Source of the DNA: Rickettsia typhi
Lineage (GTDB): Bacteria > Pseudomonadota > Alphaproteobacteria > Rickettsiales > Deianiraeaceae
Direction of reading: 5' to 3'
NCBI GenBank assembly: GCA_945881985.1
Contig: CAMCVL010000008.1
Location: forward strand, 1 to 64,000
Length of the DNA stretch: 64,000 nucleotides
How positions within the stretch are numbered: the stretch's first letter is position 1; each line of letters begins with the position of its first letter. Of this stretch, positions 5,398 through 16,585 are shown piece after piece. Position numbers and translations under genes: made by a program. The notes beneath the pieces were generated by a model, which made no database searches, had not been told where the DNA came from, and saw only the letters and a list, made by a program, of their open reading frames with translations.

Positions 5398-5727
5398 ATG
5401 TCCTTTTATGTAAAGCCTTTTGCCAATGTCTATCCTTTGGCTTTTTTTATAATGATTGCACTTAGCACTTTAACATCCTGTGGCAATATTGCCGACTACA
5501 CATCCAATCCCAACGCCACACAGCCTGACCCATCAAGCTACTACGACAATGATTACTACTACGACGGAATGATTAGGTCCTACGGAAACAAGCCATCCGG
5601 CAAGGGATACGCAGTAATAAACCCAAATGCAATTGAAAGCGATGATAATAGCTCTGTTGTTTATGTGCCAGTTGTCGTCAAAAAACCGCAGGTACAAAAA
5701 CAATACACTTACAACAATTATAATTAA
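5398..5727 (+). CDS. Small Tyr/Asn-rich lipoprotein, unknown
   Basis: 109 residues. The N-terminal hydrophobic stretch ends in a lipobox LTSC (cysteine about residue 28), followed by Gly-Asn-Ile, so the mature protein is probably lipidated. The rest is low complexity: a YYDNDYYYDG run, a valine-rich VVYVPVVVKKP strand and a YTYNNYN tail. No known domain is recognised. It ends 6 bp before the polytopic membrane protein gene and reads in the same direction as ruvB and thiE. Confidence 0.6.
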   Translation: MSFYVKPFANVYPLAFFIMIALSTLTSCGNIADYTSNPNATQPDPSSYYDNDYYYDGMIRSYGNKPSGKGYAVINPNAIESDDNSSVVYVPVVVKKPQVQKQYTYNNYN

Positions 5728-5733
5728 TTTACT

Positions 5734-7398
5734 ATGCTTGACCTACTAAAGCTTAAAAGTTTTTTTTTAACATTTGGTAGTTTGTCGTTAATGATTGTTG
5801 CCTTGGCACTTTATCTTGGCACAAGGCTACTTGCTAATGCGGGGTCAAAAATTACAATTCGTAGCCTCATTACAAGGCTTAGCATTAAGCCCATAATTTT
5901 TGTTCAATTTGCCGCCTTGGCTGGGCTAATTTACACTTTTATTAGCTGTCTTTATGCTACCCTGCTTAGTACTTTAATATTGAATATTGAATTTACAATC
6001 TTACTCTTAAATATTATTTTTTTAACCGAGAGGCGTGGAGGCAAAAGACAGGCAATCTTTAAAAGCACGATTATTCAATTGGCTGCGATACATTGTTTTT
6101 ATTTCATTTGCTACAAACTTGCAATTAACAATGGTAATCAGTTTTACACTCTTAGCATTCAGCAATTTAAGGATATAATGCTTAACCTTACAAACCTTGA
6201 CTGGCTTGAGGTGGTAATGATACATTCTTTAATAATCTGTCTTTTACTCATGCTTGGCTTTAGTCCTTTTACCTTCAATTTTGCTTTTTTGTTTAAAAAG
6301 CAGAGTCTTGCGGAAAAAATCTTATATATTGGCTTTTTTTGTAATTTAATTACTTACTTGTTAATCAAGCTTTTTGCGGGTTTTAACTACTTTAAATATT
6401 TGGCAATAATATACTTGGCGGCAAATGCTTTTAGCCTTGCAATTGCACGCAAAGTGGACGAGATAATCTTTAACCTCATAAACTTTGGCATATCTGTTGC
6501 CCTATTGCTTCTGTGCATTGAAAACATCTCCACAAACTACGCATCCCTCATGGCTCTTGTTGTTTTGGTTTTTGCACTTTTTACCTCTGCGGTCTATAAT
6601 CAGCTTTACAAAGATAGTGGCTTTGCCGGCAAACCTGGTGACATATCAATTAAAATTGCAAAACTTGGGCTTGCAAACAAACACAAGGTGCAGGCATTTT
6701 TTTTGTGTGCAATTTCTTTAAGCCTTATGTCCACGCCTTTGTCTTTGGCTTTGTTTCCTTACATGTTTTTGCAAATTTTTACTCACAGCAGGCTTTTTAA
6801 CTACTGCATAATAATTATCTGCTTTGCCGTGATTAGCTTTGCAATTGTAAGGTTATGCGGGCCTTTTGTTACTTGCCTTAAGTATGCAAGACCAATTTTT
6901 ACACTAAAATATCCAAAAAGCTCAATCTACGCTCGTAGCTACAAGCTTATAACAATGCTTATGATAAATGTTTGCATAGCAACTTTTGTGATTGCTTTAA
7001 TAATCAACTTCAACAGGTCAAACACATACAAAGAATTTTATTTATTTGACACAAGCGTAATGTTTTTTATGTGCCTTATAGCATCGGTTTTGTTTTACAA
7101 ATCCAGATACTATGTTATGCTACTTGGTTTTACAAAATTTTTTAGAGCAAGATTTGCCGCCGAATTTAAAACCCTAAACCTTAACCTTAAAACAAATTAT
7201 AATAATCTATCTTTAAGTTTTAATACAAAACTAACCTCTGGCAAGATTTTGTTTAACAAAATGGAACACAAAATAAAAGCCAAGCTAACAAATAATTCCC
7301 CATCATTGGTTGCAAACTTATCCAATTTTACTACCAATTTTGTTGCCTTGGCAATAATTGCGATATTTGCCACAATTATTTTTGCTTTTGGTGCATAA
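5734..7398 (+). CDS. Polytopic inner-membrane protein, weakly like NuoN/MrpD proton-antiporter subunits
   Basis: 554 residues with roughly twelve or more hydrophobic segments from residue 10 to about 450, a hydrophilic stretch (about 470-525) and a final TM helix. The region KLGLANKHKVQAFFLCAIS followed by LSLMSTPLSLALF resembles the loop and helix before the second half of antiporter-like subunits (NuoL/M/N, MrpA/D). However, the lysines and glutamates and the PFHTWLPDAH-type motif seen in nuoM of this window are not evident. It may be a degenerate or highly diverged member, or unrelated. The stop overlaps the ruvB start by one base (TAATG), so it is translationally coupled to ruvB. Confidence 0.5.
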   Translation: MLDLLKLKSFFLTFGSLSLMIVALALYLGTRLLANAGSKITIRSLITRLSIKPIIFVQFAALAGLIYTFISCLYATLLSTLILNIEFTILLLNIIFLTERRGGKRQAIFKSTIIQLAAIHCFYFICYKLAINNGNQFYTLSIQQFKDIMLNLTNLDWLEVVMIHSLIICLLLMLGFSPFTFNFAFLFKKQSLAEKILYIGFFCNLITYLLIKLFAGFNYFKYLAIIYLAANAFSLAIARKVDEIIFNLINFGISVALLLLCIENISTNYASLMALVVLVFALFTSAVYNQLYKDSGFAGKPGDISIKIAKLGLANKHKVQAFFLCAISLSLMSTPLSLALFPYMFLQIFTHSRLFNYCIIIICFAVISFAIVRLCGPFVTCLKYARPIFTLKYPKSSIYARSYKLITMLMINVCIATFVIALIINFNRSNTYKEFYLFDTSVMFFMCLIASVLFYKSRYYVMLLGFTKFFRARFAAEFKTLNLNLKTNYNNLSLSFNTKLTSGKILFNKMEHKIKAKLTNNSPSLVANLSNFTTNFVALAIIAIFATIIFAFGA

Positions 7399-13029: not shown

Positions 13030-13044
13030 GCTTGAAACAAAACT

Positions 13045-13077
13045 AACATCAACTTTAACGCAAACAATATCCTAAGT
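13045..13077 (+). repeat. Left copy of direct repeat flanking the DUF3800 island
   Basis: 13058-13077 is identical over 20 bp to 14362-14381, and a further 13 bp to the left is partly conserved. The same orientation on both sides brackets the DUF3800 gene and the candidate RNA. Confidence 0.6.
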
Positions 13078-13258
13078 TAGGGCATTAGGAGTATTGCTAC
13101 ACCGCTACATTGCTAAAGTCTTGTAAAATCAGGCTTTAAATGCTTTTATATTGACGCCTCTTTCAATTGTAATTTCTTACTTTTTATTGACAATTAATTT
13201 TTTTTATTATAAAAAGCATAGTTTTATTTATTGTAGTTTATGTTTTTGATTAACTGAA
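13078..13258. promoter_or_regulatory. Intergenic region upstream of DUF3800 gene
   Basis: AT-rich, no ORF. A TTGACA at 13187-13192 is followed by TATAAA at 13208-13213 (15-bp spacer, suboptimal), the likely promoter for the DUF3800 gene. Together with 12940-13077 it makes a 319-bp gene-free stretch holding the pccB promoter, the palindrome and the left repeat. Confidence 0.35.
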
Positions 13259-14038
13259 ATGCAGGAATTTGTTTGCTATATAGACGAGAGTGGAGATGAG
13301 GGTTTTAGTGAAAAAAGTTCTAAAACATTTGCTTTTTCTGCAGTGGTAATTAAAAAAGAAAATGATTTACTTTTGCCAAAATTTCAAAAATCAATATTAA
13401 CTCAGATTTCTCAAAACAAAATACAACCATTGAAAAATATTCATTTTGCCGACCTAAAGCATGAGCAAAGAAAGTATTTGTGCAATAAAATATTAGAAAA
13501 CAAAATACCATTTAGAGCAATTGTAGTATTGTCTAATAAATTTAACATTGACGACAAAAATCAACAAAACTTCAATCAAAATAAATGGGCTTATTTTAAT
13601 TATTTAGCAAGACATCTCTTGGAAAGGGTATCTTGGTTAGTAAGAGATGAAAGTTCCAACTGCGGCAAAAAAGGAAATGTCAATATTGTATTTTCAAACA
13701 GAAAGCAAATGAAAATAGAGAAAATACGCCAATATTTAATGGAATTAAAAGAAGAGAAAAATATTTCTATTGAATGGGATGTTATTGGTAACATAGATGT
13801 AAAAAATCATGAGCAGTTAGCTGGATTACAATTTGCAGATGTTTTTGCAACAGCTTTTAGAAGGTACGGATATGAAGGAGATAGACTTGGGGTTGAAACA
13901 TCCTATATAAAAATATTGCAGCCTTTTTTATATAAACATGGTTCAAAAATTCCTAATTATGGAATTAAAATTAGAGGATTAAACTACCACGAGCTAACGG
14001 AAGAGACTATACAGATGTTAAAGTTATTTGGTTTTTAA
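13259..14038 (+). CDS. DUF3800 family protein
   Basis: 259 residues. The N-terminus FVCYIDESGDEGF is the DUF3800 signature (acidic D-E-S-G-D cluster at the end of the first strand). About 180 residues later comes the matching motif EQLAGLQFADVFATAF (L-Q-x-A-D). The two acidic motifs and the spacing resemble an RNase H-like nuclease fold, and the family is common on mobile elements and in defence neighbourhoods, but no activity is established. The codon use is AT-richer (many AAA, AAT, ATA) than neighbouring housekeeping genes. The gene sits between pccB and tolR inside a 20-bp direct repeat and is followed at once by a candidate structured RNA on the other strand. Confidence 0.85.
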   Translation: MQEFVCYIDESGDEGFSEKSSKTFAFSAVVIKKENDLLLPKFQKSILTQISQNKIQPLKNIHFADLKHEQRKYLCNKILENKIPFRAIVVLSNKFNIDDKNQQNFNQNKWAYFNYLARHLLERVSWLVRDESSNCGKKGNVNIVFSNRKQMKIEKIRQYLMELKEEKNISIEWDVIGNIDVKNHEQLAGLQFADVFATAFRRYGYEGDRLGVETSYIKILQPFLYKHGSKIPNYGIKIRGLNYHELTEETIQMLKLFGF

Positions 14039-14140
14039 TGACTAACCCCTAATCCGAGTTTCCTTATTTCAAGAATAAGGCTGCAATCTCAAAGATGCCA
14101 CGGTTTGTAAAATATACTTAGCATTAGCGATTGTTAGTCA
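14039..14140 (-). ncRNA. Candidate structured RNA convergent to the DUF3800 gene
   Basis: A consensus minus-strand promoter (14146-14174) predicts a start at about 14139, exactly where an 8-bp closing stem begins (14133-14140 with 14039-14046). Inside are CTAAT/ATTAG (14049-14053 with 14123-14127), CCG/CGG (14054-14056 with 14101-14103), a perfect 7-bp hairpin CCTTATT/AATAAGG (14062-14068 with 14074-14080) and a GCAATCT/AGATGC hairpin with one bulge (14083-14098). The result is a compact multibranched fold of about 102 nt whose 3' end abuts the DUF3800 stop codon. There is no U-run terminator and no tRNA, SRP or RNase P signature. Identity unknown. Confidence 0.45.
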
Positions 14141-14145
14141 AGGTA

Positions 14146-14174
14146 ATTTTACGCAATGCAGTCTTAATTGTCAA
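14146..14174 (-). promoter_or_regulatory. Consensus promoter of the candidate RNA
   Basis: Minus-strand TTGACA (14169-14174), 17-bp spacer, TAAAAT (14146-14151). Points left towards the DUF3800 3' end, with no start codon suited for translation downstream. Confidence 0.6.
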
Positions 14175-14361
14175 GAAATTTTTTTAATTGACTTCTTTTG
14201 AATCTTATTTTTACTTAGAATATTGCCATCGGGTTTTTCACCATGCGATGCTCGTTTATGTTACAAAAGCAGTTTTTCGGTCGAAAAATTCTTAAAATTT
14301 CTTTGTGAAAATAGGATGAAAAAGAGTTTTGATAAATATTGCAAAATCAACATTCACATTC
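14175..14361. other. Intergenic remainder of the DUF3800 island
   Basis: No convincing gene. It contains an inverted repeat TTTTTCG/CGAAAAA (2-nt loop) near 14274-14289. A 67-codon frame crosses it but runs into tolR antisense and has no family features. Confidence 0.3.
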
Positions 14362-14381
14362 ACGCAAACAATATCCTAAGT
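14362..14381 (+). repeat. Right copy of direct repeat flanking the DUF3800 island
   Basis: Identical over 20 bp to 13058-13077, 1304 bp apart. It ends 2 bp before the tolR stop codon (14384), so the repeat lies at the 3' end of tolR. Confidence 0.6.
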
Positions 14382-15724: not shown

Positions 15725-16585
15725 CTAAACGCTACGACCACTCTTTTTAATGTAAAATCTTTCAATATCGTGCATAACATCTGTTTTGCCGTATTTAAAA
15801 TAGGTAAGCAAAAGGTAGTCCAGCGAGGATATAATTTCCTTGTTGCTATCAACCTTAACGCCCTTACTTTTGTAGTTAAGAACCCTCATTACCTGAGTAA
15901 CCTTTTTGTTATTCCAAAGCTCGGCACTATTAAAAAATGGAGCAACAACATCATGTATGTCCTTTATGTCAAGATGCTTATCGTCCAGCCCGTCAATTAT
16001 GTTTAAAAAAACATCAAAAGAACCATGTCCAAAAATGTCCTCAAACTCAACGCTAAAATTACCGTGTATTTTTGTATTATCCCAAAAGTTGCGAACTTTA
16101 TTTTTTATTCTTGTTGTAAAACTACGCTGTGCCATTTGCAGCTCAAGCATCTTATCTTTACCAATAATACTGCAGGCACCAAGTAAAAAAGATAAAACAA
16201 GAGCCCTGTCAAGAGGGTTTTCCCTTAGGTCTTTAAGTAGTTTTTTGTAGCTTGAAGTTGAGTCAAAAAACTTTGCAATAGGCAGCAACACCGTTACAAC
16301 AACGCTTGAATATAAAGATCCGTAGACAACATGCTCGTAGTATTTATATCCAACAAGCTTTGTTATTACGGCAACAACCTCGGATATTGCAGCCACAACC
16401 GCAAGTTTTTCTATAATTTTTATGGTTTTGGACTCCGGCTCCAATATGTCAAAAACACTAAATTTTGTTATGTCATCTGGCGTAGCTTTTTGTACCGCAT
16501 TTTTAATGAAGTGTTTTATGTCAAATAAATTTTCCGTTCCAGTTTTACCCTGAATTACATTACTCTTAAAAAACTTTACAAACAT
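15725..16585 (-). CDS. Unknown 286-residue protein with a central hydrophobic pair
   Basis: Not recognised. Residues about 58-110 hold two hydrophobic segments (KLAVVAAISEVVAVITKLVG and SLYSSVVVTVLLPIAKF), the rest is soluble and charged. A helical stretch ALVLSFLLGACSIIGK (about 128-143) may be a third, weaker one. The C-terminal half is helical with no cysteine cluster or known catalytic motif. Own promoter at 16629-16655; monocistronic by position. The ATG at 16585 lies about 44 bp after the -10. Confidence 0.6.
   Translation of the reverse strand: MFVKFFKSNVIQGKTGTENLFDIKHFIKNAVQKATPDDITKFSVFDILEPESKTIKIIEKLAVVAAISEVVAVITKLVGYKYYEHVVYGSLYSSVVVTVLLPIAKFFDSTSSYKKLLKDLRENPLDRALVLSFLLGACSIIGKDKMLELQMAQRSFTTRIKNKVRNFWDNTKIHGNFSVEFEDIFGHGSFDVFLNIIDGLDDKHLDIKDIHDVVAPFFNSAELWNNKKVTQVMRVLNYKSKGVKVDSNKEIISSLDYLLLTYFKYGKTDVMHDIERFYIKKSGRSV

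Follow-up and report, generated by a model that had tools for sequence, protein, structure and literature searches.

Proteins of the DUF3800 family have been reported to adopt an RNase H fold and to be associated with putative non-coding RNAs (PMC10910872, 2023, Science); a literature search returned no function for DUF3800 beside such RNAs. An RNA class of this kind, DUF3800-VII, is already catalogued in Rfam (RF02967). Its members comprise a closing stem, a C-G pair, an inner stem and two hairpins joined by CAG, and they lie convergent at the 3' end of the DUF3800 gene.

Two-part units of a protein and a small structured RNA are also known from type III toxin-antitoxin systems, in which the antitoxin consists of tandem RNA repeats encoded upstream of the toxin and transcribed together with it. 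Here, we compare these systems with a locus between pccB and tolR in a 64,000-nt stretch of bacterial DNA (henceforth termed the window) that carries a DUF3800 gene, a candidate convergent RNA and a flanking direct repeat. We take the locus to be a diverged version of an already known protein-RNA pair, one that travels as a cassette. Our main reading, held at a probability of roughly 0.72, is that the DUF3800 gene and a diverged DUF3800-VII RNA constitute a two-part cassette, likely a ribonucleoprotein, that has spread horizontally as a unit.

The DUF3800 gene and its predicted product

The features of the locus are collected in Table 1. The encoded protein matches Pfam family PF12686 over its full length (50.9 bits; gathering cut-off 21). 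As the first-pass annotation had noted, codon use in the gene is AT-richer than in its surroundings, with a GC content of 0.29 and a GC3 of 0.235 vs 0.35-0.44 and 0.35-0.42 in nearby genes; the whole cassette interval likewise lies below the window average of 0.37. The convergent promoter named in the same annotation was also recovered, matching the sigma-70 consensus at all but one position.

Table 1. Features of the DUF3800 locus, in window coordinates.
Feature	Position	Strand	Description
DUF3800 gene	13259-14038	+	259 aa; predicted RNase HII-like fold; invariant D9, E10, G12, E14 and D194
Probable diverged DUF3800-VII RNA	about 14036-14140 (R2 match 14035-14139)	-	~105 nt; convergent with DUF3800; 3' end abuts the DUF3800 stop codon
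Sigma-70-like promoter of the RNA	14174-14146	-	TTGACA-17-TAAAAT, 11/12
Left 20-bp direct-repeat copy	13058-13077	+	within 40-bp copy 13038-13077, 85%
Right 20-bp direct-repeat copy	14362-14381	+	within 40-bp copy 14342-14381, 85%; 2 nt past the tolR stop codon
Inferred inserted cassette, between repeat copies	13078-14361	none	1284 bp; GC 0.29

Structure prediction gives the protein an RNase HII-like fold. An AlphaFold model (mean pLDDT 93.9) gave RNase HII 1eke as its best structural match (Z 11.9 over 168 residues of the predicted model), followed by RNases H2 and H3 and by Argonaute PIWI domains at Z ~8. The motifs YIDESGDEGF and AGLQ.AD are present, and the invariant Y-x-D-E-x-G start resembles the RNase HII motif, which likewise places adjacent Asp and Glu residues early in the first strand. 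The first-pass annotation had likewise noted that DUF3800 proteins have an acidic motif pair resembling RNase H-like nucleases. DUF3800 differs from RNase HII in having a partner RNA, and the match to the RNase HII model TIGR00729 is weak (E 0.005; 16.9 bits, far below the cut-off of 123.3); its RNase activity is putative. Among solved structures searched by sequence, all nine listed matches were protein A tags or fusions, or chance hits.

Some further observations concern the surrounding sequence. A TTGACA-15 nt-TATAAA arrangement at 13187-13216, 5' of the DUF3800 start, was excluded from the promoter scan by its spacing. A tRNA remnant in the pccB-tolR interval was considered and rejected, as ARAGORN finds none there. 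Elsewhere in the window, a 286-aa ORF without any Pfam match occupies 15725-16585 on the minus strand.

The convergent RNA in homologues and in the window

RF02967 RNAs lie directly downstream of, and convergent with, the DUF3800 homologues of Cupriavidus, Rhizobium, a Rhizobium phage and two genomes from the window's order. The same 3'-end placement is seen with homologues on plasmids, in viral contigs and in many bacterial genomes. The first-pass annotation had proposed that protein and RNA form a unit, and that the RNA should be sought beside other DUF3800 genes. A model built from 26 RF02967-type RNAs of homologue loci (R1) finds an RNA convergent with the DUF3800 homologue in 94 of 100 loci, a set that includes near-duplicates such as L046/L081 and L042/L075; the association with the 3' end extends to nearly all homologues and supports the proposed unit. 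The misses were distant homologues (<28% identity) and one locus, L050, which was recovered with filters off. Across the set, the median offset between RNA end and DUF3800 stop codon is 0 nt (in the window, the RNA ends at 14035 and the stop codon at 14038), and a promoter matching at least 9 of 12 positions precedes 47% of the RNAs vs 2.6% of shuffles. Of the 28 pairs, 25 show two-sided changes across 92 distinct RNAs, with a covariation score of 0.485 vs 0.216 after shuffling.

Of 263 genomes of the order, the same five carry both a close homologue of the protein and the RNA. Two additional weak RNA matches, in genomes G086 and G129 of a single genus, both scored 23.8 bits and were taken as chance hits; the one inspected (L223, in G086) lies inside a penicillin-binding-protein gene. 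When 398 genomes of the phylum were scanned for RF02967 under strict filters, a single one was found. Searching viral contigs with the window protein as single query returned 0 matches, and the same scan with a protein alignment returned 13 loci. The units have no constant neighbour; the genes beside them range over restriction-modification, phage-repressor and housekeeping functions. PADLOC defence models gave 0 matches for the window DUF3800 protein, and some unit neighbours are restriction-modification genes; the defence module considered in the first-pass annotation is hypothetical. At one locus (L145 6011-6923, genome G281), a type I restriction operon holds the unit in its hsdS-hsdM interval.

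For the window RNA itself, the compact fold described in the first-pass annotation drew no support from folding energy, which is not significant on either strand (z -1.1 on plus, -1.5 on minus) and was discarded as evidence for the RNA. An Rfam scan of the window gave no family at threshold and only chance matches below it; the RNA does not reach the RF02967 gathering score of 36.2 bits, and the RNA of a related genome, G001, is likewise missed by Rfam. Model R1 recovers the RNAs of the related genomes G262 (L050; E 7e-6) and G001 (L038; E 5e-5) and misses that of the window. Comparison is what upholds the fold. A second model (R2) was trained on 13 RNAs, those of G262 and G001 among them, with the window held out; its top match in the window was 14035-14139 on the minus strand (18.8 bits, E 0.024 for 64 kb; runner-up 12.9). 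This was the sole match listed in the whole genome that contains the window (E 0.47), and on a 401-bp region it reached E 1.5e-4. Minimum-energy folds of the window, G262 and G001 RNAs have one common architecture, and in helices hand-chosen to fit, the three share 26 pairs, 13 of them with two-sided changes and 0 broken. Compensating changes thus conserve the fold among relatives.

Because of the R2 top match, the shared architecture and the two-sided changes in 13 of 26 pairs, the window RNA is best read as a diverged DUF3800-VII RNA, albeit one below the Rfam score. Its support comes from comparison, which also places the putative RNA on the minus strand with ends at ~14140 and 14036. The window RNA has the same sequence of closing stem, C-G pair, inner stem and CAG-joined hairpins as RF02967 and the same convergent position; it differs in that AAACTC replaces GGGTGGGATCCTC and in an insert in the 5' half of the inner junction.

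Insertion sites and flanking repeats

Related genomes carry the unit at different sites: between pccB and tolR in the window, beside trmD in G001 and between lepA and hisI in G262. In G185, a congener of G262, the lepA-hisI spacer measures ~13 nt and holds no unit, and thus represents an empty site matching the occupied one. It is the only empty site seen, and it belongs to this sister unit and not to that of the window. For the G281 unit there is no simple empty site, as its closest relatives G663 and G702 hold other sequence between hsdS and hsdM (in G702 a 492-aa ORF); for the G001 unit, trmD was found in the window genome with the neighbours not adjacent. Together, these sites indicate that the unit appears to have been inserted as a cassette at unrelated genome positions.

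Direct repeats (E 1e-5 or better) flank 11 of 94 units vs 9 of 458 shifted control intervals (P 9e-5), and exact flanking repeats of at least 16 bp occur at 10 of 88 units vs 17 of 1567 controls; because the control intervals overlap and come from few loci, they are only partly independent, and the P values are approximations. The remaining 83 of 94 units have no flanking repeat. Repeat lengths range from 40 to 112 nt, with one 511-nt tandem case; the distance from repeat edge to gene runs from 0 to 745 nt on the start-codon side and from 128 to 475 nt on the stop-codon side. Neither the length of the duplications nor their distance from the gene is constant; the units therefore have no fixed ends, and no conserved ends were found across them. 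In aligned pairs with 74-82% identity, the match mostly begins at the DUF3800 start and stops at the 5' end of the RNA, boundaries that may just mark where constraint ends.

Usually the duplicated stretch is the end of a neighbouring gene. At five loci, the whole gene stands on one side of the unit and a fragment of it on the other: L058 repeats the 3' end of a ribokinase-like gene, L060 the 5' part of a tRNA, L071 the 3' end of a 610-aa ORF, L117 the 5' end of a 543-aa ORF that begins like HsdM, and L125 the 3' end of a transporter-like gene. Gene names were assigned from sequence resemblance and Pfam tallies. A further locus, L059, contains a tandem duplication of the whole unit together with the end of the upstream gene, and its two RNAs (5442-5528 and 7168-7254) have identical scores and lie 1726 bp apart.

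In the window, the first-pass annotation had described identical 20-bp repeats at both ends of the interval, the right one at the tolR 3' end, and read them as the target duplication of an inserted 1.3-kb cassette. The repeats are exact and located as described, and the match extends over 40 bp at 34 of 40 positions (14 of 20 outside the core). The pair is the sole exact direct repeat of at least 16 bp within 2.5 kb in a scan of the 64-kb window, with 0.02 matches expected from shuffles vs 2 seen. No further copies were found in the 1.24-Mb genome at up to 3 mismatches, which rules out a dispersed repeat element. Of the two outcomes that the first-pass annotation had named as refuting, a dispersed repeat and a fold that is not conserved, neither was observed. 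Cassette insertion as such was upheld by the differing sites, the empty site of the sister unit and the enrichment of repeats. Its target-duplication part is a candidate reading, as related genomes hold no empty pccB-tolR site. The comparison of the interval in relatives yielded units at other sites, and gene order differs even in G001, where pccB and tolR are on different contigs. The 20/40-bp repeat fits the flanking-duplication pattern of other loci and is read here as a putative scar of the cassette. In G001, a 175-aa ORF (L040 8029-8556) lies just 5' of pccB, where the window has the cassette.

Working model and alternatives

In the working model, gene and RNA would be transcribed towards each other from separate promoters, and the protein would bind the RNA to form a ribonucleoprotein. 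As the RNA lacks a variable segment, it would not be a guide; it may instead be a fixed cofactor of the nuclease or a restraint on it, the restraint role being the likeliest sub-case and a guide role unlikely. The cassette would spread horizontally as a unit and land between or at the ends of genes, with a minority of insertions leaving a duplicated target stretch, of which the window repeat may be one. Binding, nuclease activity, the restraint role, the insertion mechanism and the origin of the window repeat are all parts of the model that we infer.

A harmful DUF3800 nuclease held in check by direct binding of a strongly transcribed RNA would make the unit a toxin-antitoxin-like pair that persists by addiction, in principle as in type III systems. 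The two-part composition with no constant third partner, the RNA's own promoter and the presence of units on plasmids and phages agree with this idea. We nevertheless regard it as rather doubtful: the RNA is single-copy, convergent and downstream of the gene, unlike the type III arrangement, and the protein has no PADLOC match. Far less probable is an RNA-guided nuclease akin to TnpB or IscB in which the DUF3800-VII RNA carries the guide. The RNase H-like fold with its distant likeness to Argonaute PIWI (Z ~8) and the proximity of RNA and gene would suit such a system, and DUF3800 proteins accompany some Cas12a2 loci (PMC10910872); the window protein differs from these in having no TPR domain, helicase or CRISPR partner. 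Against a guide stands the RNA itself, which, unlike that of TnpB or IscB, has no variable guide segment: among 95 RNAs, lengths are 84-94 nt, both ends are paired, and the longest variable run spans 6 columns, at the 3' tail.

Two further alternatives concern the insertion. If the protein-RNA complex cut target DNA and thereby drove insertion of its own cassette, target duplications would result. Flanking duplications, the empty lepA-hisI site and units made up of gene and RNA only are in line with such self-mobility, which we nonetheless hold to be unlikely. Unlike a transposon, the unit has neither fixed ends nor a set target-duplication length, most units lack repeats, and cassettes captured passively at breaks, or by other recombinases, would leave the same picture. 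Its more specific form, with DUF3800-VII units as minimal self-spreading elements whose RNase HII-like nuclease and fixed RNA open target DNA and insert with a duplication of tens of bases that keeps the target gene intact, is equally speculative. The window repeat might also have arisen by an old local duplication, for instance of sequence 5' of the pccB promoter, that had nothing to do with the cassette. The left copy does lie just 5' of a promoter-like site of pccB, and the low agreement beyond the 20-bp core (14 of 20 bases) would suit this origin. We give it limited credence, as no other such repeat occurs in the window and this one brackets the unit as at other loci.

Given the prior knowledge of class and family, the evidence favors the horizontally spreading two-part cassette and narrows the pair to a protein of predicted RNase HII-like fold and a non-guide RNA at its stop codon. 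With concrete boundaries, a unit of only two parts and an empty site to match an occupied one, binding, toxicity and mobility become directly testable. In one further genome (G209), two copies of a DUF1643 gene on one contig (L208 1864-2399 and L047 488-1023) are 91% identical, and one of them adjoins a DUF3800 unit.
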